Shown one piece after another: positions 15,961-32,826 of a stretch of 64,000 nt of DNA (its first letter is position 1; every line of letters begins with the position of its first letter). Both the position numbers and the translations under genes were made by a program. The stretch is taken from assembly GCF_033110285.1 (NCBI RefSeq), contig NZ_CP136995.1, positions 434,001 to 498,000 on the forward strand, in the 5' to 3' direction. The notes below the pieces were generated by a model. That model did no database searches. It saw nothing but the letters and a program-made list of their open reading frames with translations, and was not told the origin of the DNA. Origin of the DNA: Ottowia sp. SB7-C50 (lineage in GTDB: Bacteria; Pseudomonadota; Gammaproteobacteria; Burkholderiales; Burkholderiaceae_C).

Positions 15961-16352
15961 CCGTTGCCATCACTGTCGAACACAACGAGGCGCGGCTGGC
16001 AGGCACCTTGGCCTTCCTCGACGCAGGCACCAACCCGGCGCGCCTGCGCATTTACGGCGGTACGCGTCCCGCCACCCCGGCGACGACGCCCGCGAGCGCG
16101 ATGCTGGTCGAGATCAGGCTCACCAAGCCCGCAGGCACGATTGCGGGGGGACTACTCACCCTGACGCAACAGGAGGACGGTTTGATCACCAGCACCGGCG
16201 TTGCCACGTGGGCGCGGCTGGTCAACGGCAACGAAGTCACGGCTTTGGATCTGGATTGCAGCGGTACCGACGGCGATGGCGATGTGAAACTGGCCAGCAC
16301 CAACCTCTATCTGGGCGGTGACGCCCGGATGGTGTCGGCCATCCTGGGGTAA
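15957..16352 (+). CDS. Small distal-tail-region protein, unknown
   Basis: A 131-residue protein with a GTG start that overlaps the preceding stop by three bases. It is Thr/Ala/Gly-rich with short strands (LRIYGGTRPATPATTPASAMLVEIRL, NEVTALDLDCSGTDGDGDVKLASTNLYLGGDARM) and lacks signal peptide or catalytic motif. Operon position implies a structural or assembly role in the tail tip. Confidence 0.65.
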   Translation: MTVAITVEHNEARLAGTLAFLDAGTNPARLRIYGGTRPATPATTPASAMLVEIRLTKPAGTIAGGLLTLTQQEDGLITSTGVATWARLVNGNEVTALDLDCSGTDGDGDVKLASTNLYLGGDARMVSAILG

Positions 16353-16355
16353 GCC

Positions 16356-18385
16356 GTGCCTGCCGTGTCCAACGAGGTGACCTTGGTCGCCACGTTGCCC
16401 GCGCCCGCCGTCACCGTGGTGGTCGACCCGCCCTTGGTCGATCTGCTCTTCGATCAACCCGCTGCCACCGACGCCAATTTGGTGTTCGGGGCCAACTACA
16501 TCGCCCCGCGCGACGATGTGACGTTGCGGGCCACACTGCCGCTGCCGGTCGTCACGATCAAGTTCATCCCACCGGCACGGGCCGAGTTGTTAGCCCAGCT
16601 CCCGGGCCTGACGGTGCAGTCACTGGTCTTGCGCCCGAGCGTGCCCTTGAATGTGGGGGCTGGTGCAGGCGCAAGCCTGCCCGGCGTCGTGTTCACCGGA
16701 GAGGTCAGGTACGCGTCGCACACGCAGCGTCCCACGGTGGGTCGGACTTCGCACCTCTGGCAGGTGGCGAAGCAGACGGAGGACGGCGCGAAGCAGAGCC
16801 AGCAGGATGCGGCTGCAACGCCCGCAGGCTGGAAGACGTTCTGGCGGCGCACGATTGCCGCGCCTCAAGGCGTCGATCATCGGTTACCCCCCGGTCTTGG
16901 CCTCGCTGCCTGCGCAGCATCGCACCGGCCAGCAACAGGCTCGGCCCTTCCACGACTTGACGTGGTTCGCGCATCAGGATGGCACGTATCTCGAATTGGC
17001 TCGACTGAGCTTGTTTCAGAACGCGTCCCGCCTGCGCGATGCGACGGGGTTTCGTCATCAAGACGGCGACCGCACCAAGCGCGCGGGACGGGTGAGCCCT
17101 TGGCAAACCGCGCGGCAGCTCACCCAGCGCCAAGGGAGTGATTTTCAGAGCGCGAGTCCATCAGCGATGGGATGGCGTGGCCGGTATCAGGATGCCGTGC
17201 CGCCGCTGCCAGGGATCAGCATCTGGGTGATCCCAGAGCCGCCCGCGCCTCAACCTTGCTACGCGCCGAGCGCCCACCTGGTGTTCGCGGCATTGGCCCC
17301 TGCGGACAGCCACTTGCTGTTCGTTTGTGAAAACCACATCGACCCGCCACCTCCCGATGGGGAGCCGGTGGTCGTTCCCGTTCGGAGGGTGTATTTCGTG
17401 ATCAACAACGTGACACTGCACCGGCTGCCCGATGGATTGCCCGTGCCAGTGTTCAGCCTTTCACTGGCGCTCGATGCCGCCTCCTGGACGTGGGGCTTCG
17501 ATGCGCTGCTGCCCGCCGCCGCTACAAGCCTCGTCGCCCCCAGCAGCAACGGCGGCCCGGTCGAACTGGTAGCCAGCGTCAACGGCACGCCGTTTCGCGT
17601 GCTGGCTGAGAGCATCAGCCGCGAGCGGGTGTTCGGCGACGCGAGCATCCGCATCTCAGGAAGAGGGCGTAACGCCGTGCTGGCCGCACCCTACGCGCCG
17701 GTGATGAACTTCCAGCAACCGCAGGCGCGCACGGCACGGCAGTTGATGGACGATGTTCTCACGCTCAACGGTATCCCGTTGGGCTGGAGCATCGATTGGG
17801 GCCTGACCGACTGGAACGTCCCGTCCGGGGTATTCACCCAGCAGGGTACGTGGATGGAAGCCCTGATTGCCATTGCCAGTGCGGCCGGGGGGTTACCTGA
17901 TCCCGCACCCGTCCGACCAGAGCATCCGCGTGCGCCACCGTTATCCGGCTGCGCCCTGGGAGTGGAACACCGTCACGCCAGACTTCGTGCTGCCCGTCGA
18001 TGCGGTGGCCCGCGAGTCGCTACGCTGGGTAGAGAAGCCCGGCTACAACCGCGTGTTCGTGTCCGGCCAGGATGTCGGTGTGCTTGGGCAGGTGACCAGG
18101 GCGGGTACTGCCGGGGATGTGCTGGCTCCGATGGTGGTCGATGCGCTGATCACCGAAGCCGCTGCGGCGCGCCAGCGAGGCATCTCGGTTCTGGCCGATA
18201 CCGGGCAACAGATCGAGGTGAGCCTGCGCCTGCCGGTGCTGGCCGAGACGGGGATCATCGAGCCGGGTGCGTTCGTCGAGTACCAGGACGGCAGCGTGAC
18301 CCGGCTGGGCATCGTGCGCTCGACGCAAGTCGAGGCAGGAATGCCGGAGGTCTGGCAGACCTTGGGGGTGCAGAGCCATGCATAA
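16356..18385 (+). pseudogene. Tail protein split by two homopolymer frameshifts
   Basis: One gene read in three successive frames. The GTG start at 16356 (VPAVSNEVTLVATLPAPAVTVVVDPPL) stays open to about 16892. The coding frame then continues after a C6 run (16887-16892) as LPPVLASLPAQHRTGQQQARPFHDLTWFAHQDG. After a G6 run (17887-17892) it moves again to GGYLIPHPSDQSIRVRHRYPAAPWEWNTV and ends at 18385. Removing one base at each run restores a protein of about 675 residues. The central part has LNGIPLGWSIDWGLTDWNVPSG and ends in a hub-like domain. It probably belongs to the tail tip/baseplate. Both lesions have the same sense (+1) as the one at 10759. Confidence 0.72.
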
Positions 18386-18599
18386 CCTCTACGAGCAGTT
18401 CCGCCAGCTCATCCCTGAGCCGCCATTGCAGGCGGGCACGGTTGTGGGCGTCGGCTCCGGCGTCGTGACCGTCGCCTTGCCCGGCGGCGGCTTGATCCGC
18501 GCACGCGGCAGCGCTGCCATCGGCCAGAAGGTGTTCGTGCGTGATGACGTCATCGAAGGCGGCGCACCCAGCCTGACGCTGGAAATCATCGAAATCTGA
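18378..18599 (+). CDS. Small tail-associated protein (beta-barrel-like)
   Basis: A 73-residue protein overlapping the previous gene by eight bases. Sequence GTVVGVGSGVVTVALPGGGLIRARGSAAIGQKVFVRDDVIEG looks like a small OB/SH3-type barrel, as often seen for the last structural gene of this tail operon type. It is followed by a hairpin terminator and then the lysis genes. The function is unknown. Confidence 0.62.
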   Translation: MHNLYEQFRQLIPEPPLQAGTVVGVGSGVVTVALPGGGLIRARGSAAIGQKVFVRDDVIEGGAPSLTLEIIEI

Positions 18600-18623
18600 A
18601 ACCCATCTTCCTGATCACCCCTG

Positions 18624-18657
18624 AACCCGCCTTGGTGCCACGTGCATCAGGCGGGTT
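18624..18657 (+). terminator. Hairpin between tail and lysis modules
   Basis: AACCCGCCT at 18624-18632 pairs with AGGCGGGTT at 18649-18657, followed by a short T-containing stretch (TCGCATTTC). The T tract is weak, so termination may be partial and allow read-through into lysis genes. Confidence 0.5.
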
Positions 18658-18678
18658 TCGCATTTCTGGAGACCCGCA

Positions 18679-18984
18679 ATGACCGAACCCGAACAACAAC
18701 CCGCCGCCCTCGTGGAAAACATGCTCCTGCTGCGCCGCGAGGACTTTGACGATCTGCTCGACCGCGCCGCCGAACGCGGTGCAGAGCGTTGCCTGGCCCA
18801 CCTCGGGCTGGAGAACGGCAGTGCGGCGAAGGACATCCGCGAACTGCGCGATCTGCTGGAAGCGTGGCGCGATGCCCGCCGAACGGCGTGGCAGACCACC
18901 GTCAAGGTCGTGACCACCGGCATCCTGGCCGCGCTGCTGGTGGGGGCTGCCATCAAGTTGAAGCTGATGGGAGGCGTGCAATGA
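18679..18984 (+). CDS. Membrane-anchored phage protein (DUF6127-like)
   Basis: A 101-residue protein: a charged helical N-terminal part (REDFDDLLDRAAERGAERCLAHLGLENGSAAKDIRELRDLLEAWRDARRTAWQTTV) and one C-terminal membrane helix (VTTGILAALLVGAAIKL). This arrangement matches DUF6127-type proteins at the head of lysis cassettes, possibly a holin partner. Its stop overlaps the holin ATG (ATGA). A GGAG site lies upstream. Confidence 0.7.
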   Translation: MTEPEQQPAALVENMLLLRREDFDDLLDRAAERGAERCLAHLGLENGSAAKDIRELRDLLEAWRDARRTAWQTTVKVVTTGILAALLVGAAIKLKLMGGVQ

Positions 18985-19208
18985 CTGCCAAGCCGAAGAT
19001 CTGCCTACTGGACGACTGGCGGCGCGTGTTGCGACGGGCCTGGAGCATCCGCTTCTCGCTGCTGGCCGCTGCCTTCACGGCGGCGGAAGTCGCGGTGCCG
19101 CTGTTCGGGGACGTACTACCGCGCGGCGCGTTCGTGCTGCTGGCCTTTGCCGCCAGCATCGGCGCAACCGTAGCTCGCATCGTGGCTCAGCCGGAGATGC
19201 ACCGATGA
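18981..19208 (+). CDS. Putative holin
   Basis: A 75-residue protein with two hydrophobic segments (SIRFSLLAAAFTAAEVAVPLF and GAFVLLAFAASIGATVARIVA) and a short cytoplasmic N-terminus (LLDDWRRVLRRAW). It resembles the DUF7940/small holin type placed immediately before an endolysin. It starts within the ATGA overlap of the preceding gene, and its stop overlaps the lysozyme start. It would form membrane lesions or depolarise the membrane to time lysis. Confidence 0.75.
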   Translation: MTAKPKICLLDDWRRVLRRAWSIRFSLLAAAFTAAEVAVPLFGDVLPRGAFVLLAFAASIGATVARIVAQPEMHR

Positions 19209-19714
19209 CCCGGCCACCATCACCAGCGATACGCAGGACGGTGGCCGGACTGACGCTGTCCGCTGCCGCCCTGGTTGGCATCGTGCTGCACGAGGGCTAC
19301 ACCGACCGTGCAGTGATCCCCGTCAAGGGCGATGTACCGACCATTGGTTTCGGCACCACCACCGGGGTGAAGCTGGGCGACACCACCACGCCGCCAAAGG
19401 CGCTGGCTCGGGCTCTTACCGACGTGCAGCAATTCGAGGGGGCGCTCAAGCAATGCGTGACCGTGCCCCTGGCCCAGCACGAGTACGACGCGCTGGTGAG
19501 CTTTTCTTACAACGTCGGCAGCCGCGCGTTCTGCCAGTCCACGCTGGTCAGAAAACTCAACGCCGAGGACTACGCGGGAGCCTGTGCCGAGCTGCTGCGC
19601 TGGCGCTTCTTCCAGGGCAAAGACTGCGCACTGCCCACCAACGCGCGGCTGTGCGGCGGGCTGGCTACGCGGCGAGAAGCCGAATACCGGCAGTGCATCG
19701 GGGAGGCGTCGTGA
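19205..19714 (+). CDS. Phage lysozyme (GH24, SAR endolysin type)
   Basis: A 169-residue muramidase. The N-terminal residues 12-28 (TVAGLTLSAAALVGIVL) are weakly hydrophobic and Ala/Gly/Ser-rich, as in signal-anchor-release endolysins. The catalytic Glu is in HEG (Glu30), followed by KGDVPTIGFGTTTG with the conserved Thr46 region; 'SFSYNVGSRAFCQSTLVRKLN' and 'LRWRFFQGKDCALPTNARLCGGLATRREAEYRQC' are family signatures. SAR topology would let it cross by the Sec system and be released when the membrane depolarises, fitting the upstream holin. Confidence 0.9.
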   Translation: MTRPPSPAIRRTVAGLTLSAAALVGIVLHEGYTDRAVIPVKGDVPTIGFGTTTGVKLGDTTTPPKALARALTDVQQFEGALKQCVTVPLAQHEYDALVSFSYNVGSRAFCQSTLVRKLNAEDYAGACAELLRWRFFQGKDCALPTNARLCGGLATRREAEYRQCIGEAS

Positions 19715-20208
19715 GCGTGATTCCGTGGCCGTACCGGCTGCTGGCCCTGGCGGCGCTCGGCGTCGCTCTGGTTGGCTTTGGCTGGATCAAGGGGGCGAGC
19801 CACGTTCAAGCGCAATGGGATGCCGCCATCCAGCAGCAAGCCCTACAGACCGCCGCCGCCCGCGAGCGGCAGGCGCAAGCCACCGTCAAGGTCGTCACCC
19901 AGTACGTCGACCGTGTCCGCGTCGTCCGCGAGAAGGGCGACACCATCATCAAGGAGGTTCCCGTCTATGTGCCCGTTCAAGCCGATGCTGCTTGCACTAT
20001 CAACCGTGGCTTTGTGCGCCTGCACGACGCTGCCGCCGCCGGTGAACTGCCCGAGCCCGCCCGAGATGCTGATGCGGCCGCCACAGGCATTGCGATCTCT
20101 GCCGTCGCCGGAACCGTTGCTGCCAACTACCAGACCTGTCACGAGAACGCCGAGCAGCTGAGGGCGTTGCAGGCTTGGGTCAGCGAGATGGCATCCACCA
20201 CCAAGTAG
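19711..20208 (+). CDS. Rz-like inner-membrane spanin
   Basis: A 165-residue protein with a GTG start overlapping the lysozyme stop; GGGGAGG lies just upstream. Residues 5-23 (PYRLLALAALGVALVGFGWI) are a membrane anchor, followed by a long periplasmic coiled coil (QQQALQTAAARERQAQATVKVVTQYVDRVRVVREKGDTIIKEV). It would work with the nested Rz1 to fuse inner and outer membranes at the end of lysis. Confidence 0.82.
   Translation: MSVIPWPYRLLALAALGVALVGFGWIKGASHVQAQWDAAIQQQALQTAAARERQAQATVKVVTQYVDRVRVVREKGDTIIKEVPVYVPVQADAACTINRGFVRLHDAAAAGELPEPARDADAAATGIAISAVAGTVAANYQTCHENAEQLRALQAWVSEMASTTK
19967..20161 (+). CDS. Rz1-like outer-membrane lipoprotein spanin nested in Rz
   Basis: A 64-residue reading frame lies entirely inside Rz in another frame, starting at ATG 19967 with AAGGAGG nine bases upstream. 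It has a short signal (MLLALSTVALCAC) with lipobox LCAC, so the lipidated residue would be Cys19, then a Pro-rich mature part (TTLPPPVNCPSPPEMLMRPP). This is the classical lambda-type Rz1 architecture. It is too short and too embedded to be called by length alone; the lipobox, ribosome site and Pro-richness support it. Confidence 0.82.
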   Translation: MCPFKPMLLALSTVALCACTTLPPPVNCPSPPEMLMRPPQALRSLPSPEPLLPTTRPVTRTPSS

Positions 20209-20611: not shown

Positions 20612-21559
20612 TCAATCGTCCAGTTCGGGAACGTCCCAGTCCGCTGGGCGCGCCTCGCCAGTCTGGTAGAACTGCTTAACCAGCTTCACGTATTCCAGAA
20701 AATCCCGGTTCTCCGTGGCCAGCCTGTTGGCCATGTCCCAATCGATCTCGTCGCGCTCGCGCGCCGGTATCAGCACTTGACTGTCGGCAGGGTTGTCCAC
20801 GTCCAGCTTGATGAAGCCGATGCCGTGGGCGGCGAACAGCATCCGCAGTTCCTTCAGCGTATCGGTGCCGCCGATTTCCGCCGCGACCAGATAGCCGAAA
20901 TTGGCCCACGACGAATTCGACACCGCCTGGAAAAAGCATTCACGCACGTTCGAACGGTTGATCAGCAGCTTGGCCTCGAACGACCACAACTTGGTGCGCT
21001 TGTCGGAATACTGCGTCACGCAATCGCGCACTTCGCGGTGCCATTCCTTGCTCAAATCCTCCATGCCGACCACATCCGGATACAGCCAGCGGTTGCCATT
21101 GGGCCCGCGCTTGTTCGATGAGCGCTTTTCGTCGATGCGCTTGGAGAAAACCCCGAACTCCTCCCACAGATATTGCGACAGCAGCGGGTAGAGCGCGTGT
21201 TCGTCGATCTTGGGCGACCCTGAGTCCTCCGCTGACGTGACCGTAGTGCCTTCACTCTCGACCGCTGCCACCTCGGCGCTGTCCGACCGCTCCGAGTAGT
21301 AATGCTTGCGCGGCCGCCCCTCGGTCGTCTTCAGCTCCAGATGCTTCCTTTGCAGGCGCGGCAACTGGGAACTGATCTCGCGCACGATCTGCTGCAACAG
21401 ATCGGCATCCGTTTCGAGGCGTTGGCTGCTCTGTTTCTTGGCCTGACACTGCTCGGGATAGGTGGCAAACACCCACTCGGCGATCTGACGCGCGGTGAAT
21501 TTCTCATCCGGGTGCGCCTTGAGGTAGCCGACGACGGTTTTCGCCAGATTCAATTCCAT
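20612..21559 (-). CDS. COG2958/HrgA-like protein with HARE-HTH-type N-terminus
   Basis: A 315-residue protein. The start MELNLAKTVVGYLKAHPDEKFTARQIAEWVFATYP is used because AGAGGA lies six bases upstream. The first about 70 residues have the HARE-HTH winged-helix look, and the rest (LYPLLSQYLWEEFGVFSKRIDE, WLYPDVVGMEDLS, KLWSFEAKLLINRSNVRECFFQAVSNSSWANFGYLV) resembles the COG2958 family. That family accompanies restriction systems and includes HrgA of Helicobacter. The 'VVG.ED' and 'SFEAK' residues could form a PD-(D/E)xK-like site. It is the last gene of the defence operon, 25 bases after hsdR. Role: possible accessory nuclease or DNA sensor (inference). Confidence 0.75.
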   Translation of the reverse strand: MELNLAKTVVGYLKAHPDEKFTARQIAEWVFATYPEQCQAKKQSSQRLETDADLLQQIVREISSQLPRLQRKHLELKTTEGRPRKHYYSERSDSAEVAAVESEGTTVTSAEDSGSPKIDEHALYPLLSQYLWEEFGVFSKRIDEKRSSNKRGPNGNRWLYPDVVGMEDLSKEWHREVRDCVTQYSDKRTKLWSFEAKLLINRSNVRECFFQAVSNSSWANFGYLVAAEIGGTDTLKELRMLFAAHGIGFIKLDVDNPADSQVLIPARERDEIDWDMANRLATENRDFLEYVKLVKQFYQTGEARPADWDVPELDD

Positions 21560-21584
21560 ACCCATTCCTCTCTCGTCCCGGTCA

Positions 21585-24500
21585 TCACGCCGACGCACCG
21601 GTCTGCGGCGGGGCCTTCGGCGGCACCACGCCCGGCTGATAGGTCGCATCGAACACCGTGTCCGTCAGCCAACGCTTGAAATTGGGGTTGTCGCTGAACT
21701 GCTTGAACAGTTCGGTGTGGTCGGACAGCAGCTCCAGCACCACGCGGTTGAGTGCCTTGTCGTGCTCCAGCTTGGCGTTTTGCTTGTCGGAGTTCGCCTG
21801 CGCGTTCTGGTAGGCCTTGTCCTGCGCTACCCGCGCTGGGATTTCCTCGGCGATGACCTTGCGGATCTTGTCCTCGTCCTTCCACTCGATGTTGCCGAAG
21901 AGGTCGTTGAAGGTCTTGATGATCGCGGAGAGCCTGTCGATGTCGGCTTCGCCTTTGCCGCCTCCACCACCGGGCGGCACCGGATCGACGGTGGCGTCGG
22001 CATCGTCCATCGCCATCTTCAGCGCTGCTTTGGCCTCAACCCGGTAGCTGTCCATGTCGATGGTCTCCAGCACCCCTTTGGAGAGGTCTTCCTCCTTGGG
22101 CGCGGGCAACTTGGGGATGAGGAAGTTCAGGAAGATCGACAGCTTCTCCCACGTCGGGTGACCGTAACTCAGGATCGCGGCGAGGAAACCGTAGCTGCGC
22201 ACGAAGGCCTTGGCCTTCCCCTTGAACTTGACCTGATCGTCCTCGCCGAGCTGGTCGGTGTATTCGACCACGCACGCATCGAGGATCGGATCGAGTTTGT
22301 CCCGGTCAGCGCCGCTCAAGTACAGCGACACCAAGTCTTCCACCTGCTGCCAGCTATACACCTGCTGCCCGTCGAGTTCAGCCTTCAGGTCGTGCAGCTT
22401 GTTGGCGTCGGTTTCGCCGGTCTGGATGGTGGCGCGGTAGTAGTCCTGGAACGCCGCCTTCACTGCCTCGGCGTTGTCGGCGAAGTCGAGCACGAAGGTG
22501 TCGTGCTTTTGCGGATGTGCCCGGTTCAAACGTGACAGGGTCTGCACCGCCAGCACGCCCGCCAACGGCTTGTCCACGTACATCGTGTGCAGCAAGGGCT
22601 CATCGAAGCCGGTGACGAACTTGTTGGCAACGATCAGGAAGCGATACGGGTCTTGCTTGAGATTCGCCGGAATGTCCTTACTCGGAAACCCATTGAGATC
22701 GGCCTCGGTCTTCTTCTGACCACCGATCTCGAAGTCGCCCGAGTACGCCACGATGGCCTTGTACGGGCTCTTGATCTGGGTGAGGTAGTCCGACACCTCG
22801 CGCCAGTAGTCGATGGCCCGCGCGATGCCGTTGCACACGATCATCGCCCGCGCCTTGCCGCCGATCTTCTGTTTGCCCGCAACCTGTGCGATGAAGTGAT
22901 CGACCATGATCTCGGCCTTGCGACGGATGGCCTTGTCGTGCGATTCGACGTAGTGGCGGATCTTCTTCAGCGCCTTCACCTTGTCGAATTCCGGGTCGTC
23001 CGCCACCGTCTTGGCCACTTGGTAGAAGCTGTCGTAGGTGGTGTAGTTCTCCACCACGTCGAGGATGAACTTCTCCTGGATCGCCTGCTTGGTTGTGTAG
23101 GTAAGCTCTTCCGGCGAGCGGAACTGCACCTTGTCGCCGACCAGGGTTTTCTCGCCGAACAACTCCAGCGTCTTGTTCTTGGGCGTGGCAGTGAATGCGA
23201 AGTAGCTGGCGTTGGCGAGCAGCTTGCGCGAGGCGATGCGTTTCTCGATTTCCGCGTTCACCGCATCCTGCGTGCTGTCCTCCTCGAACTCCTCCTCGGC
23301 AACCTTGCCGCCGAGGGCTTCGTGCATCCGCGCCGTGGTTTTGCCGCCTTGGCTGGAATGCGCCTCGTCGATCAGTAGCGCGAACTTCTTGTCGCTGAGG
23401 TCGCCCAGCTCATCGAGGATGAACGGGAACTTCTGCACCGTGGTGACGATGATCTTCTTGCCTCGGCGCAGGTACTCGCGCAGTTCCTGCGCGTTGTCGG
23501 AGTGGCCGAAGATGGCCGCCACATGGTCGTAACCCTTGATGGTGCGGGCAATCTGTGTGTCCAGCGCGCGCCGGTCGGTGATGACGACGATGGAGTCGAA
23601 CTGCGCCGTCATCGGGTCGTCCTTGCGACGCAACTCCACCAACTGGTGCGCCAGCCAGGCAATGGTGTTGCTCTTGCCGCTGCCCGCCGAATGCTGGATC
23701 AGATATCGCTTGCCCACCCCGTCGGCGTGGGCCCGGCGCAGCAGGGCGCGCACCGTGCGCAACTGATGGAAGCGCGGGAAGATCTGCTTGCGCTTCTTGC
23801 GTTTCTTTCCGCTGGTGTCCGCTTCTTCCTCTTCCACTACCTGCGCGTAACTCTCGATGATGTTGGCCAGCGACTCGCGGGTCAGCACCTGTTTCCACAG
23901 GTAGTCGGTCTTCAGGCCATCCGGGTTGGGCGGGTTGCCCGCGCCACTGTTCCAGCCCTGGTTGAACGGCAGGAACCACGAGGCTTTGCCCTTCAGCTCG
24001 GTGCAGAACGCAGCCTCCGCGTCATCGACCGCGATGTGCGCAACGCAACGGCCCAACTGGAACAGCAGCTCCTGCGGGCTGCGCGTGGTTTGGTACTGGA
24101 CGATGGCGTCGGCCAGGGTCTGCTTGGTCAGCGAGTTCTTCAACTCGAAAGTCAGCACCGGCAGGCCGTTGATGAAGATCGCCAAGTCCAGTTCGTTGCC
24201 GGAATCGTTGCTGTAGCGCAGCTGCCGGGTGACGCTGAAGATGTTCTTGCCGAAGGCATCCGCTGCGGCGGCGTTGCCCGGCGTCGGCAGCAGCTTGTAC
24301 AGATCGACGTGTACCGGCCCGTGGCTCACGCCCTTGCGCAGCACGTCCACAACGCCGCGCTTGGTGATCTCGCCCTGCAGCCGGTGCAGGAACTGGGTGC
24401 GCTTGATGCCGTCCGCCGCCAGTTCCAGCGTTTCCACCGCCTTGGGCTGGGTGGCCTGCAAGAAGGCCAGCAACTGCGCCACATCCAGCGCTACATCGCG

Positions 24501-24656
24501 GTTGTAGTCGGTGGGCTTGCCCTGCACGTAGCCGTTGTGGGTGGCGGCAAAGTCGGTGGGAGCCAGCGCATGGCTGTACTCGGGCTGCGGCACACCGGTC
24601 AAGCCGCGTACCACGCGCGCCTCGAACCAACGCTCGCTGGTGTCAGTCTTCGCCAT
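21585..24656 (-). CDS. hsdR: Type I restriction enzyme R subunit
   Basis: A 1023-residue translocase/nuclease. The N-terminal nuclease domain shows ELDLAIFINGLPVLTFELKNS (D...ELK, PD-(D/E)xK type). SF2 helicase motifs follow: HSAGSGKSNTIAWLA (Walker A), LLIDEAHSSQGG (DEAH box), FTATPKNKT (motif III) and LAVQTLSRLNRAHPQKHDTFVLDF (motif VI). A long helical C-terminus for HsdM/HsdS contact ends in PPKAPPQTGASA. The start MAKTDTSERW has AGGAGG six bases upstream and overlaps the HsdS stop by 14 bases. Length is normal for the family. It cuts unmethylated DNA after ATP-driven translocation. Confidence 0.93.
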   Translation of the reverse strand: MAKTDTSERWFEARVVRGLTGVPQPEYSHALAPTDFAATHNGYVQGKPTDYNRDVALDVAQLLAFLQATQPKAVETLELAADGIKRTQFLHRLQGEITKRGVVDVLRKGVSHGPVHVDLYKLLPTPGNAAAADAFGKNIFSVTRQLRYSNDSGNELDLAIFINGLPVLTFELKNSLTKQTLADAIVQYQTTRSPQELLFQLGRCVAHIAVDDAEAAFCTELKGKASWFLPFNQGWNSGAGNPPNPDGLKTDYLWKQVLTRESLANIIESYAQVVEEEEADTSGKKRKKRKQIFPRFHQLRTVRALLRRAHADGVGKRYLIQHSAGSGKSNTIAWLAHQLVELRRKDDPMTAQFDSIVVITDRRALDTQIARTIKGYDHVAAIFGHSDNAQELREYLRRGKKIIVTTVQKFPFILDELGDLSDKKFALLIDEAHSSQGGKTTARMHEALGGKVAEEEFEEDSTQDAVNAEIEKRIASRKLLANASYFAFTATPKNKTLELFGEKTLVGDKVQFRSPEELTYTTKQAIQEKFILDVVENYTTYDSFYQVAKTVADDPEFDKVKALKKIRHYVESHDKAIRRKAEIMVDHFIAQVAGKQKIGGKARAMIVCNGIARAIDYWREVSDYLTQIKSPYKAIVAYSGDFEIGGQKKTEADLNGFPSKDIPANLKQDPYRFLIVANKFVTGFDEPLLHTMYVDKPLAGVLAVQTLSRLNRAHPQKHDTFVLDFADNAEAVKAAFQDYYRATIQTGETDANKLHDLKAELDGQQVYSWQQVEDLVSLYLSGADRDKLDPILDACVVEYTDQLGEDDQVKFKGKAKAFVRSYGFLAAILSYGHPTWEKLSIFLNFLIPKLPAPKEEDLSKGVLETIDMDSYRVEAKAALKMAMDDADATVDPVPPGGGGGKGEADIDRLSAIIKTFNDLFGNIEWKDEDKIRKVIAEEIPARVAQDKAYQNAQANSDKQNAKLEHDKALNRVVLELLSDHTELFKQFSDNPNFKRWLTDTVFDATYQPGVVPPKAPPQTGASA

Positions 24657-26739
24657 CACCATCCTCCTCTTCGGTCACATCTTCGTTTTCATCGCCCAGC
24701 GCGGCCAGCGCCGCGTCGTCCACCACGTCGTCCGGGCCGGGTTGCCAGCCGCGCACGTCCACTTGACCGGTGACCACATCGGCAATCTGACGGTCGCGGT
24801 ATTCGCGGATTAGCTTGATTTCTTCTTCGGTGCGGGCAATCGCGTCATCCAGCGGCTTGCATTCGTCGGTGATCCAGCGGCAGATGGTTTTTTGCTCTTC
24901 GACGGGTGGTAACGCGATGACTGCGTTCTTCACATCGTGTTTGCCGAGTGCAAAGCGCGTGACGCCGGTGGCGAGAACGTGGAACTGCTGCGCCGTGCGC
25001 GCCGAGCCGATGGCGCGAAACAGGAACTCTCCCAACACGCGATCCGGTACGGGGCGCAGCAAGCCGAGGTGATACGCGCAAACCACGCCGGGCAAATCCT
25101 CCGGCACCCACGCGGGTACACCGATGTCGTCCGGCGTTTCGGAATCTTTCGTCAGAATGACATCGCCCGCTTTCAACGTCAGGCGGGCGATCTCTGCCGC
25201 CGTCGCTGTGGCGCGCATCAAGTCCATATCGTCGGTGATGCGGTCATTCTTGTAGACGTCGGTGTAATTGCACAGGCGCACCGGTGTTTCGAGGTCGTGT
25301 GAATGTTTGTCCACCCCGCTGAAGCGCACGTCCGCGACGTGCTTAATGAGGGCTACTTCCCAATGCTCCGGCACCTCGCCCAGCCATTCGATGCCGGACG
25401 GCTTCAGCGAGACCGCAGCGTCGAGGCCGCGCGTGACGGCGTGGTCGATGATGCGCAGTTTCTTTTCGGTGAGCAGCCTGATGAGATCGCGCTTGGCCTT
25501 GATGAAGCGGGCGATGTGAGCGTCCTGCGCTCGTAGGTAGGCGACGATCTGGTCTTGCTCGGGGCGCGGGGGCACGAGCGAGGGCATCTGCTTAAAGGAC
25601 TCCCAATACAGCCGGTTGCGATCCGCCACGATGCCGCGCGAGAACTTGTTGACCTCCTGCATGTACGCCGCCGTGCGGAACAGGTAGCTGTAGTAGCTGC
25701 TGTTGGCCTCGTCGTAGGGTTTCACCACGACATAGGCCGGGCTGACCAGCCCGTCAACTGGCGCGGGGCCGACCGCGCCTTGCCACATCCGCATCATGTT
25801 GTAGGCGATGTCGCCTTTGGCTGCGCGTTTGTACTTCTCCTTCTGGCTCATCACCTGCTTGCGCTTCAGGTTTTCCATGTCACGCACACGTACGCCGGTG
25901 CGCAGCGACACTTCCAGAATGGGTAGATCGGGGAAGCCCGTTTCGACGCGATGACCGAATAGGCGGCCATTGCGCAGCACTTGCCAGCTTTCAGGTATAT
26001 GCGGTACCCAAGGAAGACCCGATGCGCGAAAGGCTTGATTTACCGTCTTGGCTGGAACAACCGGTGCCGGATCAGCTACAGCCTCGACTGCGATGGCTGT
26101 GTCCGCACCGAATAGGGAGCCCTGCTCCTGTACTTCGGCGGCCTGCGGCGTTGGCAGTCCCACTGCCACTTCAATCGCCTGCCCGAACAGCAGGAACTGT
26201 GGAATGTCCGGCGGTGCGATGTCCAGGGCTGCGTCGCGCCCCTGCTGCTTCACCTGCTCGCGCAACTCCATCAGCAGCCTGCCCAAAACGTTCATGCCAA
26301 CCAGCGTGTCGCCGTCGTCAACGACCTTGGCTCCCCAAAAATCGTCCTTGCGCGATTCCTCGACGATGGGTCGCTCGCCAGTCTTCAGCAGCAACGTACT
26401 GAAGGCGTTCCAGTTGTTGGCCAGCTTCATGCGCAGGCTCCAGCGCATAATGCGCACGCGCACCTGATCCCAATCCGGGCGCGAATCCTTACGGTAGGGC
26501 TTGCTCCGCATTTTGGCCGTCATAGGGCTGATCTGGCCGATGATCAGCTTCTGCACGTCGGGAAGATGCGGAAAGCGGCAGGCCTGATACAGCGCCTCGG
26601 AGGTTAGTATCCGTACCCCATTAACATGGATCGGGTAGCCCCCCGCCATGTTGGATAGGCCACCAAACGGTTCGTCGGTCTTGAGGAAGACGACGCTGTC
26701 CTTGCGGCTGTAAGTGCGACTCTGATCTCTTCCGCTCAT
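24643..26739 (-). CDS. hsdS: NADAR-domain / HsdS fusion: type I specificity subunit
   Basis: A 698-residue protein made of two parts. Residues about 15-165 form a NADAR (YbiA/DUF1768) domain: PFGGLSNMAGGYPIHVNG, SEALYQACRFP (Glu48, Tyr51-Gln52), a KMR...W..VRVRIMRWSLRMKLANNW helix, and IVEESRKDDFWGAK, then GMNVLGRLLMELREQ. After a linker (170-225) come two target-recognition halves of HsdS, beginning WVPHIPESWQVLR and IEWLGEVPEHWEVALIKHVADV, each followed by a helix (FIKAKRDLIRLLTEKK; IKLIREYRDRQIADVVTG). HsdS normally has 400-460 residues without the N-terminal domain. NADAR enzymes cleave N-glycosidic bonds or remove ADP-ribose; its role here is unknown. Its start overlaps the PRTase stop by one base (TGATG). 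Confidence 0.88.
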   Translation of the reverse strand: MSGRDQSRTYSRKDSVVFLKTDEPFGGLSNMAGGYPIHVNGVRILTSEALYQACRFPHLPDVQKLIIGQISPMTAKMRSKPYRKDSRPDWDQVRVRIMRWSLRMKLANNWNAFSTLLLKTGERPIVEESRKDDFWGAKVVDDGDTLVGMNVLGRLLMELREQVKQQGRDAALDIAPPDIPQFLLFGQAIEVAVGLPTPQAAEVQEQGSLFGADTAIAVEAVADPAPVVPAKTVNQAFRASGLPWVPHIPESWQVLRNGRLFGHRVETGFPDLPILEVSLRTGVRVRDMENLKRKQVMSQKEKYKRAAKGDIAYNMMRMWQGAVGPAPVDGLVSPAYVVVKPYDEANSSYYSYLFRTAAYMQEVNKFSRGIVADRNRLYWESFKQMPSLVPPRPEQDQIVAYLRAQDAHIARFIKAKRDLIRLLTEKKLRIIDHAVTRGLDAAVSLKPSGIEWLGEVPEHWEVALIKHVADVRFSGVDKHSHDLETPVRLCNYTDVYKNDRITDDMDLMRATATAAEIARLTLKAGDVILTKDSETPDDIGVPAWVPEDLPGVVCAYHLGLLRPVPDRVLGEFLFRAIGSARTAQQFHVLATGVTRFALGKHDVKNAVIALPPVEEQKTICRWITDECKPLDDAIARTEEEIKLIREYRDRQIADVVTGQVDVRGWQPGPDDVVDDAALAALGDENEDVTEEEDGDGED

Positions 26740-27773
26740 CAGAGATCGCCTCCGGTCAGATCGGCAAACATCCTTCTCATCGCCGTCTGCGTGTTCGTGG
26801 TTCGCGGGAAAAGCGGATACCACGGCGCATCCACCCAGAACGCCAGCGGCGCGTTGTTGGGGCAATTGCGGTAGGTGACGATGAGCGAGCCGAAGCCCAG
26901 CGTTTCCAGCGTCATGTGCCCCAGGGGGCGCTGGACGGCACTGAGGTTGGGGCAAATCTGCCGAATGTGGACACCGGCTTTCAGGAACTCCTGTTCCAGC
27001 AGAATTTTGGCCGCGTCGCTGGAGAACAGACCCGCAGCGCCGGGGTTGCCAGCGGCTCTGAGCGTGGGCGGGTACCGCATGGCAGCCACATGGGCTTGCA
27101 CCGCAGGATCGTTCGGGATCGCCGTCGGGCGCAGCACGTCCGACGTTGCGCTGTAGGTCTTTCTGTCCTCGAGCTCGATGGCGTGCCACCACGTGATATC
27201 TATATTCTTTCCCGAACCTCGGATGACTTCTTGAATCTTGGTGTTCGCGTAATACCGTCCGCCACTGTGCTCTGCGATGCAGATCACATGCACCTTAGCC
27301 TGCGCGGGCGCGTTGCCACCAATCCATCCTTCCAGATCACGTCGCACGCGGTTGCCGGTGAAAATGCCGTCATCCAAATAGATGAAGACTTCGTCACCTT
27401 GCCCGCAGTCGGCGATGCCGAATCCGTGCTCATCTTCCAGTTGCTCGGAGAACAGGGCGAGCATGTCGGTTTGGCTGCTGCCACCGCCCTGAATATCGAG
27501 GAAGCTGGCAGATCGCCAGAACCTGTCGGGTCTGTCGCCGGTGAGCTTCTGAGTGCGCATCGCACCACGGAGGAACTTGGCCACGTCCTCTTTCGAGAAG
27601 TAGATCTTCTTGAGTACGTGGTCGATCTCTTGGAGGATGGGCAGCTGCACAGCAGCGTCGAATTGCTGCACCCAATGCTCGACGTGGTCGGGGATGGGCT
27701 GCGGGAGCGAGCCGCCCCGATAGTCCTGAATCGTGTTGGCGATGGACGCCACAAGGTCGATACGTTGGCTCAT
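26739..27773 (-). CDS. Phosphoribosyltransferase-like protein in the restriction operon
   Basis: A 344-residue protein. Residues 129-143 read VFIYLDDGIFTGNRV, matching the PRPP-binding loop of type I phosphoribosyltransferases (hydrophobic strand, D-D, x3, T-G). An N-terminal helical region (IPDHVEHWVQQFDAAVQLPILQEIDHVLKKIYFS) precedes it and a C-terminal alpha/beta extension (LGHMTLETLGFGSLIVTYRNCPNNAPLAFWVDAPWYPLFPR) follows. PRTase-like domains of this size have been predicted in prokaryotic conflict systems, but the substrate is not known. It overlaps hsdM by four bases (ATGA) and NADAR-hsdS by one, so it is made with the restriction subunits. Confidence 0.75.
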   Translation of the reverse strand: MSQRIDLVASIANTIQDYRGGSLPQPIPDHVEHWVQQFDAAVQLPILQEIDHVLKKIYFSKEDVAKFLRGAMRTQKLTGDRPDRFWRSASFLDIQGGGSSQTDMLALFSEQLEDEHGFGIADCGQGDEVFIYLDDGIFTGNRVRRDLEGWIGGNAPAQAKVHVICIAEHSGGRYYANTKIQEVIRGSGKNIDITWWHAIELEDRKTYSATSDVLRPTAIPNDPAVQAHVAAMRYPPTLRAAGNPGAAGLFSSDAAKILLEQEFLKAGVHIRQICPNLSAVQRPLGHMTLETLGFGSLIVTYRNCPNNAPLAFWVDAPWYPLFPRTTNTQTAMRRMFADLTGGDL

Positions 27774-30160
27774 GCGGGCACGCCTCCCACGATCTTGTCC
27801 AGCAAGCCTTCGGTCTGCTGCTCCAGCTTCAGGATGTCGGCGCGGATTTCTGCCAGCGTGCGCAGCGGCGCGGGCTTGTAGAAGTAGCGGGCGAACGAAA
27901 TCTCGTAGCCGATCTGGGTCTTGTCGGTGGCAATCCAGGCATCCGGTGCGTGCGGCAGCACCTCGCGGGCGAAGAAGGCATCGATACCGCCCGGCTCCTT
28001 CAACGGCACCTGCTCGGTGTCGCGCAGATCACTGTCGGGCTCGTACTCGACCATGAAGCGATCTTTGCCCACGATCTCCAGGTACGCGCCATCGAAACCG
28101 GGCTCGAAGTGTTCTCCTGCCTTGAGCTTGCTGCGCCTGGCGATGACCGGCGGCGCGGTTTCGTCGCGCCAGCTCACCGCCTTGTAGATGGTCTTCTTCT
28201 CCGGCGCGCCGAGCTTGTCACCCTGCGCCTTGAGCGCAGCATCGAAGCGGGCGCGGAATTCGTTGTGGTCGTCGAACACGGCGCTGCCCAGTGCCTTCTG
28301 CGCCCGTTGCGCCACCTCCATCAGCCCCTTGTCGCGCTGCCACGTCGAAGCATCGAGCAGCTTCTTGCGGCGCTTGGCGGGCACGGCCTTGCGGGTTGTG
28401 GTGGCTTCGCCGTCATCACTGCTCTCGCTGTCTTCGCTGTCGTCGTCTTCGTTCTCGTCCTCGCCCTTCAGCCACGCCTCGATGGCTGGCTTGCGCTTGG
28501 CGAACTCGCTGTAGAGCGTCTCACCGTGGGTGGCGTATATCTCGGCGCGCAGCGCCTCGTCGCCGGTGGCAAACCGCAGGGGCTCGATGCGTTCGTCTGA
28601 GAGCTGACTTTTCAGGCGCAGCGGGCGCTCGACGGTGATCTTCCAGTAGCCGAAGTCCTGGGTGTCGAACCATTTCGACTCGGCGGTTTCCTGCGCCTCG
28701 CCGAGGTAGAGGTCGAGGATTCGTTGGATGTCTCCGTCCGAGAGCTCGCAGTTCTTCTTGCCGAGATTACGGCGCAGCGGCTGGAACCAGCCGCTGGCGT
28801 CGATCAACTGCACCTTGCCACGGCGTGCTTCGGCCTTCTTGTTGGCCAGCACCCAGATGTAGGTGGCGATGCCCGTGTTGTAGAAGATGTTGAGCGGCAG
28901 GGCGATGATGGATTCGAGCCAGTCGTTCTCCAGCACCCAGCGGCGGATGTTGCTCTCGCCCTGGCCTGCGTCCCCGGTGAACAGCGCCGAGCCGTTATGC
29001 ACCAGCGCAATACGGCTGCCCAGCGGCGTGTTGTGCTTCATCTTCTGCAGCTTGTTCACCTGGAACATGAGCTGCCCGTCGCTGGAGCGGGTGAGGAGCT
29101 TGAACTCGTTGTTGCCCGCGTGGCTGACAATGAAACGCGGGTCGTTGAACTCCTTCTTGCCGCCCATGCGCTCCAGATCGGTCTTCCAACTTTTCCCGTA
29201 GGGCGGGTTGGAGATCATGAAATCGAATTCGCGGCTGCGGAACTGGTCGGCAGACAGGGTGGATTTGTCTGCGCCACCGACGATGTTCTCGGCTTCCGCT
29301 CCTTCCCCCTTCAAGAGCAGGTCGGCCTTGCAGATGGCGTAGGTTTCGTCGCTGATTTCCTGGCCAAACAGGTGGATTGACACTTCCTTGCCGTGCTGCT
29401 CGGCCAGTTCGTGTAGCGCTTCCTCGGCCACGGTGAGCATGCCGCCGGTGCCGCAGGAGCCGTCGTAGAGCGAATAGGTGCTGGATTCGATCCGGTCGGC
29501 CACTGGCAGAAACAGCAGCTTGGCCATGAGCTGCACCACGTCGCGCGGGGTGAAGTGCTCGCCTGCCTCTTCGTTGTTGTCTTCGTTGAAGCGGCGGATC
29601 AGCTCCTCAAACACCGTGCCCATGCCATGGTTGTCCAGGGCGGGCAGCTTGATGCGGCCGTCGGCATCCTTCACCGGCAGCGGCGCGAGATTGACCTCAG
29701 GGTCGAGGAAGTCGTCGATCAGGTAGCCAAGGACGTGGGAATCCACCAGCTTCTGGATCTGGTTGCGGAAGTTGAACTTGGTGAGGATTTCCTGCACGTT
29801 GGGCGAAAAGCCGTCCAAATACGCAATGAAGTCATCGCGTAAGCGCTGGCCTGCTGCGCTGGCCTTGAGCTTGGCCAGCGTGAATTCCGAGACGTTGTAG
29901 AAGGCTTGGCCTGCCGCCATGCGCAGCGCGCCGTCCTGCTCGGCCACTTTGTGGGTGTCCAGGAACTTCTTGCGCTCGAGCACCGCGTCTTTCGTCGCTT
30001 CGAGCACGGCATCGAGCCGCCGCAATACGGTGAAGGGCAGGATCACATCGCGGTACTTGCCGCGCACGTAGACGTCGCGCAGGCGGTCGTCAGCGATGTT
30101 CCAGATGAAGTCGGAAATCCACTTGATCTGGCTTTGGTCTTGTTGTTGTTTCTTCTGCAT
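27770..30160 (-). CDS. hsdM: Type I restriction enzyme M subunit (N6-adenine methyltransferase)
   Basis: A 796-residue methyltransferase. Start MQKKQQQDQSQIKWISDFIW has GAGGAACG upstream. The N-terminal helical bundle is followed by GEHFTPRDVVQLMAKLL, the SAM-binding loop YDGSCGTGGML and the catalytic NPPYGKSW motif (D/NPPY). It is longer than usual HsdM (about 500-530): the C-terminal 280 residues contain an acidic linker (EDENEDDDSEDSESSDDGE) and a further helical domain ending IRADILKLEQQTEGLLDKIVGG, as in the long-HsdM subgroup. It protects host sites and is the core of the HsdMS complex. Confidence 0.93.
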   Translation of the reverse strand: MQKKQQQDQSQIKWISDFIWNIADDRLRDVYVRGKYRDVILPFTVLRRLDAVLEATKDAVLERKKFLDTHKVAEQDGALRMAAGQAFYNVSEFTLAKLKASAAGQRLRDDFIAYLDGFSPNVQEILTKFNFRNQIQKLVDSHVLGYLIDDFLDPEVNLAPLPVKDADGRIKLPALDNHGMGTVFEELIRRFNEDNNEEAGEHFTPRDVVQLMAKLLFLPVADRIESSTYSLYDGSCGTGGMLTVAEEALHELAEQHGKEVSIHLFGQEISDETYAICKADLLLKGEGAEAENIVGGADKSTLSADQFRSREFDFMISNPPYGKSWKTDLERMGGKKEFNDPRFIVSHAGNNEFKLLTRSSDGQLMFQVNKLQKMKHNTPLGSRIALVHNGSALFTGDAGQGESNIRRWVLENDWLESIIALPLNIFYNTGIATYIWVLANKKAEARRGKVQLIDASGWFQPLRRNLGKKNCELSDGDIQRILDLYLGEAQETAESKWFDTQDFGYWKITVERPLRLKSQLSDERIEPLRFATGDEALRAEIYATHGETLYSEFAKRKPAIEAWLKGEDENEDDDSEDSESSDDGEATTTRKAVPAKRRKKLLDASTWQRDKGLMEVAQRAQKALGSAVFDDHNEFRARFDAALKAQGDKLGAPEKKTIYKAVSWRDETAPPVIARRSKLKAGEHFEPGFDGAYLEIVGKDRFMVEYEPDSDLRDTEQVPLKEPGGIDAFFAREVLPHAPDAWIATDKTQIGYEISFARYFYKPAPLRTLAEIRADILKLEQQTEGLLDKIVGGVPA

Positions 30161-30171
30161 TGATACGTTCC

Positions 30172-31890
30172 TCAGCTCGCCGCCGTGCCTGTGGAGACTG
30201 CGAGATTCCAATGGTCTTTGAGGACGCCCACAAGGCGTTTCTGGCGTTCGGCCAGAAGCGTGGGCGTCCACTCGTTCTCTGATCTGACTTCCTGCGTCAG
30301 CACGAAGGGAGACGCCTTGCCTTTGCCCCTGAAGTAGGCGTCCTTCTTCTTGGCAAAGTCGTAGTTGCTTGCAGACGAGTTCTTGTTCCTATCCAGCGGA
30401 ACCAGATTGGCCAGGCGGTGCGTCCAGCCATCGCGCTCGTCTTCATCCGGGAACCACTTGATCCAGTCCGAACCGTCGGGCGGGGTTTGCGGCAGAACGT
30501 GCTCCAGAGACACTGCATCTTGGAGCTGCACGCCGGGGGCGCGCACCAAGGACTCAAGGCGCAAGACCAGCGCCATCCGTGCCTTGGGCAGATCGTCGTA
30601 AACGTCTCCATCGAGTGCCGCGACGAACTTGCGCTTTTGCGCGTCTGTCAGTGTCAGCGTGGTGAGCGCAGCCAGATCTCCCTTGAAGGCCTCCGGTTCA
30701 ATTTCCTTGGTGAGCGCAGCGTAGGTTTCTATGCGCTCATTGATGCCCACCTTTGTGACCAACAGGAAATAGGTCAGGCGTTCCAGTGACTGGAAAAACT
30801 CTGCGAGTAGTTTGGGTTGCTGCCGGAAACGCTTGAAGTAGACCAGTGCCGGGGGCACCCAGTCCTTGAAGTCCACGCGGTTGAGCCAGGACAGGTGTTC
30901 GTTGATCGTCTCGGCGTGTTCGGTGGCCTCGAAGTCGGCATCGCGCACGAAGTCCCACACTTCGGCGTAGGGTTTGATGACCTTGTCGACGAGGTCGATG
31001 GGGGTCTTGTACTCGGTGACGTGCTCCTGGAACTCCTTGACCAGGATGTACTTCTGCTTCTTCTTGGCGTAAATGCTGCGGATGTGGCCAAACAGGTCAC
31101 CGAAGGCGTCGCGGCCCAGCGAACTTTCGATCCGGCTCCACTCTTTTGCGTAGGCGCGGCTCTTGATGTCGCCTGCCGTAGTGCGGATCAGGCCAAGGAC
31201 CTGCGCCTTGATGATGTCGATAGGCGCGAGGTCGAGTCCCCGGTTGTTGAGTACGGAGAAGATGCGGTATGCGGCTTCGAGGTCGGGCGTGGAGATGACA
31301 ACCAGCGAGCAGTCGTTGGCGAGGAACTGCCACAGCGCAATGAGGTCGGCAGGCGGAAGCGCCTTGGCCTTTTCGAGCAGCAGCGTGGCGTTTTCACGGT
31401 AACGCAGACGGCTGTCTTTCAGCTTGTCCGTACTGGCGACCAGCTGTGCGATGCCACCCGGTTCCTGAATGTTGGTGCGGAAGAAGTCGGCATCCTCTTC
31501 GCGAGCTGTCAGGCGGTACTCGTTCTTCTCGCCCAGACTGACCTTGCCCTTTTTATAGAGGAAGTCGGTGATGTCATCTGCCGCATCCGGCATCACGGTG
31601 CGCAGCACAGCAAAAAGCATCGTGAGCGTGGACAAGCGCTGCTGGCCATCGACCACCGATGACTTCGGGTCACGGTCATTTTTGATCAGAACAATGCTAC
31701 CGAGGAAGTATTGGCTGCTGGCTCCGGAGACGCGCGCGTCCTGCATCGCCGAATACAGATCATCGAACAACTCTGTGGCCTGCTCGGTTGTCCAGGCGTA
31801 GGGGCGCTGGTAGTCCGGAATCTCGAACTGGTAGCTGCCTTCGAAGATCTCCCGGATCAGTTTGTCGTGAGCTTCAAGTGTCTTGGCCAT
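30172..31890 (-). CDS. DUF262/DUF1524 protein (GmrSD-like nuclease)
   Basis: A 572-residue protein. The N-terminal DUF262 half shows IPDYQRPYAWTTEQA and the family hallmark SSVVDGQQRLSTLTML (DGQQR, a ParB/Srx-like nucleotide-dependent site), plus FSVLNNRGLDLAPIDIIKAQVL. The C-terminal DUF1524 half has the HNH-type SLEHVLPQT and 'NLVPLDRNKNSSASNYDFAKKKDAYF'. Such proteins act as type IV restriction enzymes against modified phage DNA (GmrSD, BrxU) or as nickases. It lies between the WYL regulator and hsdM, eleven bases before hsdM. Together they could attack both unmodified (type I) and hypermodified (type IV) DNA. Confidence 0.87.
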   Translation of the reverse strand: MAKTLEAHDKLIREIFEGSYQFEIPDYQRPYAWTTEQATELFDDLYSAMQDARVSGASSQYFLGSIVLIKNDRDPKSSVVDGQQRLSTLTMLFAVLRTVMPDAADDITDFLYKKGKVSLGEKNEYRLTAREEDADFFRTNIQEPGGIAQLVASTDKLKDSRLRYRENATLLLEKAKALPPADLIALWQFLANDCSLVVISTPDLEAAYRIFSVLNNRGLDLAPIDIIKAQVLGLIRTTAGDIKSRAYAKEWSRIESSLGRDAFGDLFGHIRSIYAKKKQKYILVKEFQEHVTEYKTPIDLVDKVIKPYAEVWDFVRDADFEATEHAETINEHLSWLNRVDFKDWVPPALVYFKRFRQQPKLLAEFFQSLERLTYFLLVTKVGINERIETYAALTKEIEPEAFKGDLAALTTLTLTDAQKRKFVAALDGDVYDDLPKARMALVLRLESLVRAPGVQLQDAVSLEHVLPQTPPDGSDWIKWFPDEDERDGWTHRLANLVPLDRNKNSSASNYDFAKKKDAYFRGKGKASPFVLTQEVRSENEWTPTLLAERQKRLVGVLKDHWNLAVSTGTAAS

Positions 31891-31905: not shown

Positions 31906-32826
31906 CTATCGCTTCTTTGGGCTGCTCGGGGCTTGGTAACCCGGAGCCAGCTTGGCGTTCTCGACGCCGTACAGCGCCAGCGGATCGCTGAGCCACAGGC
32001 GGTACTGTTCTTCCTTTAGACGGTGGTCGGGCGAGCAGTCCACGCTCCAGCGCAGCAGCATGTAGCCAGCTACCGCTGCGCGCACACGCATCCGGATCGA
32101 GCCGTCGGTCATCCCGTAGTCCATCTTGATGATCTCGGGGCGCTCAAGGCGCGGGTGCGGCACGAAGTCCAGCTCGACGATGCGCGTCCACTGGATGTCG
32201 TTGTCCGGCCGCTCAAAGGCCTGTGGCTCCTCGTCGAGCAGCGTTGGCGCTTCGATACGGGTAACGACGAAGTCCCGAAACTCTCCGCTCTTGCGATCAA
32301 AGGCTCGGACGTGCCAACGCGGACCGGTGTCCACCAGGGCAAAGGGCACGATGACCCGCTCGGACTCTCCGCTGCTCATCGAGTGGTAGCGGATGGCGAC
32401 GGGTCGCTTGGCGTGGATCGCCCGGCAGACCGGGGCCAACACATCCATCCTGGGATTGCTCAGGGCGGTGGGTGACTCGCACGGCAGCAGCGGCTGCGTT
32501 GCGCCGTTCACGCCATCGCCGAAGCCCAGAGCCAGCGCCGACAGCACGCGCTGCGATGCGTGATCGAACAGAGGGGAGAACGCCTGCCCGATGCGGTAGA
32601 TCTTGTTGCTGCCGTCGAAGGTGATGTTCTGCGGCGCGATTTCTCGGTACAGCGCCAAATCGCGTGTCGCCCCTGCCGGAGCCACGCCGAAGCGCTCAAT
32701 CAGGTCTGGGCGACCGATCTCACCGAAGAAGTAGAGCCGGAAGTCGATGTAGGCCAGCCGCTCGCGCTGGGCGTGGCTCAAGCTCTCGACGCGCTGGGGT
32801 TGAGTCACCGAAGGCTCCTCATCCAA
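31906..32826 (-). CDS. WYL-domain transcriptional regulator (CapW/BrxR-like)
   Basis: A 306-residue protein with an N-terminal winged helix (RERLAYIDFRLYFFGEIGRPDLIERFGVAPAGATRDLALYREIAP). A WYL domain follows in the middle (KRPVAIRYHSMSSGESERVIVPFALVDTGPRWHVRAFDRKSGEFRDFVVTRI), then a C-terminal dimerisation/WCX domain (VAGYMLLRWSVD). Architecture and position at the head of a defence operon match CapW/BrxR repressors, which bind inverted repeats in their own promoter and respond to a ligand through WYL. It is the first gene; its stop is 15 bases before the DUF262 start. Confidence 0.88.
   Translation of the reverse strand: MDEEPSVTQPQRVESLSHAQRERLAYIDFRLYFFGEIGRPDLIERFGVAPAGATRDLALYREIAPQNITFDGSNKIYRIGQAFSPLFDHASQRVLSALALGFGDGVNGATQPLLPCESPTALSNPRMDVLAPVCRAIHAKRPVAIRYHSMSSGESERVIVPFALVDTGPRWHVRAFDRKSGEFRDFVVTRIEAPTLLDEEPQAFERPDNDIQWTRIVELDFVPHPRLERPEIIKMDYGMTDGSIRMRVRAAVAGYMLLRWSVDCSPDHRLKEEQYRLWLSDPLALYGVENAKLAPGYQAPSSPKKR

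Follow-up and report, generated by a model that had tools for sequence, protein, structure and literature searches.

A NADAR-HsdS fusion gene downstream of a phosphoribosyltransferase gene

The 64,000-nt window analysed here (Ottowia sp. SB7-C50, contig NZ_CP136995.1) contains a type I restriction-modification (RM) operon in which a NADAR domain is fused to the specificity subunit HsdS. The fusion gene (24643..26739, minus strand) is a single open reading frame (ORF) of 698 residues, with its ATG at 26739 and its stop at 24643-24645; the plus-strand frame over the same interval is interrupted by several stops. The initial annotation, made from the sequence alone, gave the coordinates and the length correctly and left the strand unstated. 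The NADAR/YbiA-like N-terminal domain and the two HsdS target-recognition halves that it proposed are both borne out by profile and structure matches. The NADAR domain (residues 18-163, 26251..26688) matches PF08719 (E 5.1e-23, 82.5 bits, cut-off 35.1), and in a Foldseek search with the AlphaFold2 model it matched YbiA (2b3w, TMt 0.71) and the NADAR structure 8bau (TMt 0.68). The HsdS moiety (residues 236-669, 24733..26034) matches Specificity_I of PADLOC (348 bits) and, in two stretches, Methylase_S (PF01420, score 37.4, cut-off 22), with Foldseek matches to the HsdS structures 1yf2, 7vru and 2y7c over a full fold with two target recognition domains (TRDs). The two parts are well formed in the model (mean predicted local distance difference test score (pLDDT) 82, predicted TM-score 0.58) and lie on either side of a predicted disordered linker of about 43 residues (residues 192-234, 26038..26166, pLDDT <50). 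With the riboflavin-intermediate N-glycosidase model TIGR02464 the NADAR scores 72.9 bits, under the cut-off of 73.7, and is therefore not claimed as a riboflavin enzyme; its PADLOC match, as PDC-M42C, is weak.

When only proteins of similar length were searched, 983 with a NADAR were obtained, so that the fusion is recurrent. Among the 120 matches listed, all carry PF08719 and 117 have at least 640 residues. Given so many proteins of similar length, a sequencing artefact, a missed stop or an assembly error is very unlikely and was rejected.

Directly upstream of the fusion lies a PRTase-CE gene (26739..27773, minus strand, 344 residues), coding for a putative phosphoribosyltransferase (PRTase), the stop of which overlaps the ATG of the fusion at 26739 (ATGA). 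The protein matches PF24390 (E 4.9e-59) and, from its AlphaFold2 model (pLDDT 92), may adopt a type I PRTase-like fold. Its PDB profile matches with E up to 1 (n = 10) comprise an EF-hand protein as the best hit, one xylanase and eight PyrR entries, and it has a weak profile match to PRTase_III-A of PADLOC, a retron type III effector. With the NCBIfam model DS32_1_antiphage (NF053875) it scores 414.8 bits (cut-off 250), and residues 8-189 of the fusion score 277.3 bits (cut-off 240) with DS32_2_antiphage (NF053876). Both cut-offs are passed by adjacent genes in the order PRTase, NADAR, and by this NCBI standard the two genes are the anti-phage pair DS-32. The name itself is taken, from its form, as belonging to the DS numbering of DefensePredictor (PMC13092281); in the portions of its main text that were covered, NADAR domains are mentioned once, PRTase appears in the legend of Fig. 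4, and DS-32 is unnamed.

The one E. coli DS-32 pair that was inspected also passes both cut-offs and shares the gene order and the catalytic residues. It stands alone in a lambdoid prophage, beside replication genes, whereas the pair described here is embedded among type I RM genes and has a NADAR that is continuous with HsdS. A related NADAR gene was matched in 62 of 5,426 E. coli genomes, and each of the matches listed covers 22% of the query. The prevalence of DS-32 is low: the PRTase cut-off is passed in 3 of 398 genomes of the phylum and the NADAR cut-off in 3 of 274 of the class, the source genome being included in both counts. The plasmid collection contained three PRTase records, all with less than 60% identity.

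The genes around the pair complete a type I RM system with a full, two-TRD HsdS, since hsdM, hsdS and hsdR stand together in one operon. All on the minus strand, the genes are, in the order of transcription, a WYL regulator, a DUF262/GmrSD gene, hsdM, the PRTase gene, NADAR-hsdS, hsdR and an unclassified ORF. The hsdM gene (27770..30160) matches N6_Mtase, HsdM_N and MTase_I of PADLOC (845 bits); its start at 30160 is a likely one, picked by eye, in a frame open from 30271. The hsdR gene (21585..24662, 1025 residues) matches HSDR_N and SWI2_SNF2, as well as TIGR00348 below the cut-off, and overlaps the end of the fusion by 20 nt.

Insertion site of the cassette

Relatives of the operon that lack the cassette indicate where it was inserted. 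At two loci (L160, with HsdM, HsdS and HsdR 86%, 67% and 87% identical, and L161, with 83%, 62% and 78%), hsdM is directly followed by an unfused hsdS, which begins at about the point where the HsdS part of the fusion does. A third, L162 (81%, 41% and 81%), is alike, except that hsdS and hsdR are separated by two further ORFs. It is thus at the hsdM-hsdS junction that the cassette lies, and the comparison of these sequences points to an insertion of DS-32 at this place in a type I RM operon, with the NADAR in frame with HsdS.

The junction also holds other genes in related operons. A GmrSD_N-type gene (607-642 residues; the representative is HEC-05-like in PADLOC) lies between hsdM and the PRTase gene in L033, L041 and 14 further loci, so a second insert is often present in these RM operons. 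At L047 (3955-5385), a Schlafen AlbA_2 protein is encoded at the same position.

Genomic contexts of related NADAR genes

Related loci were located by the sequence words KDDFWGA and FGGLSNMA, and the best 80 of 235 genome loci, ranked by likeness to the window sequence and thus biased towards it, were surveyed alongside 17 loci of the viral collection. A locus was labelled as an HsdS fusion when BLAST matched the NADAR frame to the HsdS of the window (E 1e-4). The 80 genome loci comprise 45 HsdS fusions, 6 fusions of NADAR to HmaB, 3 unfused NADAR genes in Hma operons and 25 others outside recognised RM or Hma operons; L091, initially labelled as a fourth unfused case, has a helicase gene upstream and no HmaB, and was dropped. 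With HsdS fusions at 45 of the 80 loci, the view of the fusion as an isolated oddity was rejected. In 41 of the 45, hsdM and hsdR lie on the same strand, and the other four are at contig ends. One of the 25 others, L079, has relatives of hsdM and hsdR nearby on the other strand. Over all kinds of context, the loci come from Pseudomonadota, Chloroflexota, Planctomycetota, Acidobacteriota, Thermodesulfobacteriota, Cyanobacteriota and others, including several metagenome bins.

Including a viral-set locus (L107), the fusion of NADAR to HmaB (DUF1156) was confirmed with Pfam at seven loci (the others being L054, L057, L059, L072, L090 and L099), and representatives of the flanking genes match HmaA (helicase), HmaB and HmaC (DUF499). 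At L069, L078 and L097, an unfused NADAR gene lies ahead of the same HmaB methyltransferase; L120 and L121 coincide, or very nearly so, with L097 and L078, respectively, and each of these loci was counted once. Judged by domain content, the NADAR-HmaB fusion parallels the NADAR-HsdS fusion. Neither 'NADAR' nor 'PRTase' occurs in the main text of the publication on DUF499-centred systems (PMC12839542).

One-sided pairing of PRTase and NADAR

A PRTase-led search of the viral collection found a NADAR gene just downstream in 34 of 34 loci, many of them near-identical prophages. The same arrangement was seen in three genomes over the cut-off (source genome included) and in three plasmid records; at L122, where a distant PRTase scores below the cut-off, no NADAR was found within the 3.5 kb of sequence examined. 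The partner is not peculiar to the Ottowia locus, a possibility that was rejected, as the PRTase accompanies NADAR generally. The reverse search, which shares most of its contigs with the first, started from NADAR and gave 44 loci: 35 with a PRTase (contigs of 4-90.3 kb), one cut off, and eight on contigs of 98-500 kb (L209, L220, L230, L238, L239, L244, L245 and L246, of which two probably represent a single phage) with no PRTase found within flanks of up to 8 kb a side. Four solo NADARs were scored, giving 190-232 bits with DS32_2 (cut-off 240) and 57-65 with the general model TIGR02464, and on their DS32_2 scores they are taken as kin of DS-32, although they fall below its cut-off. A search of 50,697 phage records found no PRTase; among these, a 485-kb phage encodes a NADAR 51% identical to that of the window. 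A DS-32-like NADAR with no PRTase nearby is found in Dolichospermum phage Dfl-JY45 (L127). At a cyanobacterial locus (L092:9735-9977), a PRTase remnant of about 70 residues lies beside an intact NADAR.

This one-sided occurrence, PRTase with NADAR and NADAR without PRTase, is the pattern expected of a toxin and its antitoxin. Judging by their sequences, the DS-32-like NADARs on large phage contigs are candidate antitoxin mimics; a phage antitoxin mimic is known for DarTG, as described in passages of PMC11481870.

Conserved residues and exchange of target recognition domains

The initial annotation had named Glu48, Asp132 and Trp135 as active-site candidates, and these are conserved in 94, 90 and 94 of 94 NADAR sequences, respectively. 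R55 and E127, the latter conserved in 94 of 94, are to be added to them. From its spacing to D132 and W135, E127 corresponds to the catalytic glutamate of the YbiA family and to E125 of the P. nicotianae enzyme, as numbered in a passage of PMC11543638. Within the two search words, which cover D132 and W135, part of the conservation follows from the way in which the loci were selected; E48, R55 and E127 fall outside them. In the PRTase, the acidic pair of the phosphoribosyl pyrophosphate (PRPP) loop (D134-D135-x4-G140) is conserved in 88 of 88 sequences. From the alignments, the predicted catalytic residues are conserved in both proteins.

The HsdS part behaves differently from the NADAR. In 28 proteins the NADAR is 97-100% identical to that of the window, while the second TRD half is 24-48% identical in 22 of them and the first half 36-42% in 2. 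TRDs are thus swapped under a near-constant NADAR, to which the target sequence of HsdS is indifferent, and this makes a sequence-targeted demodification unlikely. The PRTase can also diverge on its own, as NADARs that are 90-96% identical may accompany PRTases only 45-53% identical. The two Hma loci of Magnetococcales (L097/L120 and L078/L121) share about 95% identity in the flanks and the NADAR, and only 50% in the PRTase, which may reflect either an exchange of alleles or strong diversification. Because the two genes differ in history, a tree of concatenated PRTase and NADAR is unsafe, and separate trees were used. Starred branches force 2 changes of HsdS context on the NADAR tree and 3 on the PRTase tree, with point estimates of 9 and 7; as reconstructed from these trees, the HsdS context changed more than once.

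Interpretation of the fusion

The gene content, the fusion, the relatives with an empty site, the conserved catalytic residues, the predicted folds and the repeated, one-sided occurrence of the pair are best explained by a DS-32 cassette in an RM operon, in which the PRTase would be a toxin-like effector and the NADAR an enzymatic antitoxin tethered to the restriction complex; we give this explanation about even chances. The PRTase would spend PRPP to attach a 5-phosphoribosyl group to a base (free, or in a nucleotide or nucleic acid), and the NADAR would hydrolyse the N-glycosidic bond so made, in the manner in which YbiA cleaves phosphoribosylated pyrimidine intermediates in riboflavin synthesis. 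The fusion to HsdS would tie the amount and the place of the antitoxin to the M2S/R2M2S complex; a phage that disables or titrates the RM complex, or overwhelms the antitoxin, would leave the PRTase uncancelled, and the infection would abort. On this reading, the restriction complex may itself be what restrains a suicide switch. If true, restriction systems would be booby-trapped, and a phage beating restriction would set off a second line. The explanation would also give DS-32 a concrete chemistry, in which the NADAR takes away a phosphoribosyl N-glycoside that the PRTase has formed, and name candidate counter-defence genes of phages. One caveat applies to the one-sided occurrence: NADARs are frequent in large phages and may have other uses there, as stated in passages of PMC9503650.

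A broader form of this explanation, which we put forward tentatively, is that the methylating complex itself is the antitoxin. With NADAR joined to HsdS in one methylation-based defence (type I RM) and to HmaB in another (Hma), each being the DNA-recognising subunit, phage anti-restriction or the loss of RM genes would set free a toxin of an undescribed kind that transfers phosphoribosyl groups, and large phages would counter it with NADARs that they encode themselves.

Among the alternatives, the one that survives best, although we think it unlikely, is that DS-32 is an independent cassette lodging in RM operons, where the fusion just secures co-expression and co-inheritance without any coupling. 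This would agree with a pair that is found alone in prophage, on plasmids and at the 25 genome loci outside recognised RM or Hma operons, with a flexible linker ahead of a full-length HsdS, and with the repeated changes of context on the trees. Linkage does not need a fusion, however, and yet it is the NADAR and not the PRTase that is fused in two systems, to HsdS in 45 and to HmaB in 6 of the 80 loci.

It is less probable still that the two enzymes form an offensive pathway, the PRTase acting first and the NADAR second (e.g. by exchanging or removing bases in phage DNA or in nucleotides), with HsdS bringing the NADAR to unmodified phage DNA. The strict pairing of the genes, the intact catalytic sites of both proteins and the DNA-recognising nature of the fusion partners could be explained in this way. 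Against this, the pair occurs without HsdS, TRDs are swapped under near-identical NADARs, and a NADAR on a large phage contig with no PRTase nearby would aid the host's own attack.

As for the initial annotation, its domain call, its active-site candidates and, for the literature searched, its view of the fusion as undescribed stand, and its functional proposal is weakened. That HsdS guides base cleavage or de-ADP-ribosylation to the sites it recognises, or that the NADAR senses ADP-ribosylated DNA, appears very improbable: the fusion to HsdS and the reversal of guanine ADP-ribosylation by NADARs (passages of PMC11543638) speak for it, but the proposal had missed the PRTase partner, DS-32 exists without RM genes, HmaB fusions occur, the NADAR is conserved independently of the target sequence, its residue set is of the YbiA type (E127), unlike the aspartate type associated with DarT1, and sensing finds no support, as no ADP-ribosyltransferase (ART) is among the seven operon proteins scanned.

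Relation to known systems

While the pair is known as DS-32, its RM-embedded, HsdS-fused form was not found described in the literature searched: no text with both 'NADAR' and 'specificity subunit' was found, preprints, among them one on embedded defences (Payne et al. 2024), lying outside the coverage, and no such fusion is reported where the examined passages of the literature pair PRTase with NADAR. In a paper examined that names both NADAR and HsdS, hsdS features solely in the genotypes of strains. PrrC, an abortive anticodon nuclease encoded inside the type I RM operon of EcoprrI, is held by the RM complex; it is an RNase and is not known to have an enzymatic antitoxin or a fusion to HsdS. 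The retron type III effector shares the weak PRTase profile match, whereas here the partner is NADAR and no reverse transcriptase is among the operon proteins scanned. The closest printed precedent found is DarTG2 in the RRDM island of enteropathogenic E. coli, which, according to passages of PMC12255303, is a toxin-antitoxin pair that likewise lies within an hsd operon, one partner modifying bases and the other removing the modification. There, DarT is an ART, the antitoxin is a macrodomain, and the pair is unfused and lies between hsdS and hsdR. In DarT1-NADAR and YarT-YbiA, NADAR is an enzymatic antitoxin, according to passages of PMC11543638 and PMC11125620; their toxin is an ART and not a PRTase, their NADAR is not fused to HsdS, and the catalytic residue set of DarT1-NADAR differs from that of the fusion. 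No DarT gene adjoining the NADAR was found in the operon.

Other genes of the operon and its surroundings

The operon is headed by a gene for a WYL-domain regulator (31906..32826, minus strand, PF13280), which is also present upstream in L023, L029, L032, L068 and L103, followed by the DUF262/GmrSD-type gene (30172..31890, minus strand), with matches to GmrSD_N, GmrSD_C and Orf5/HEC-06 of PADLOC. A promoter scan found none and was uninformative, and no tRNA was found in the window. Downstream of hsdR, the unclassified ORF (20612..21649, minus strand, 315-345 residues depending on the start chosen) has no PADLOC or PHROG match and no Pfam match over the cut-off; a 78% identical relative sits with the cassette-less RM operon of L162. 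Prophage tail and endolysin genes on the plus strand (13606-20208) end just beside the RM operon.

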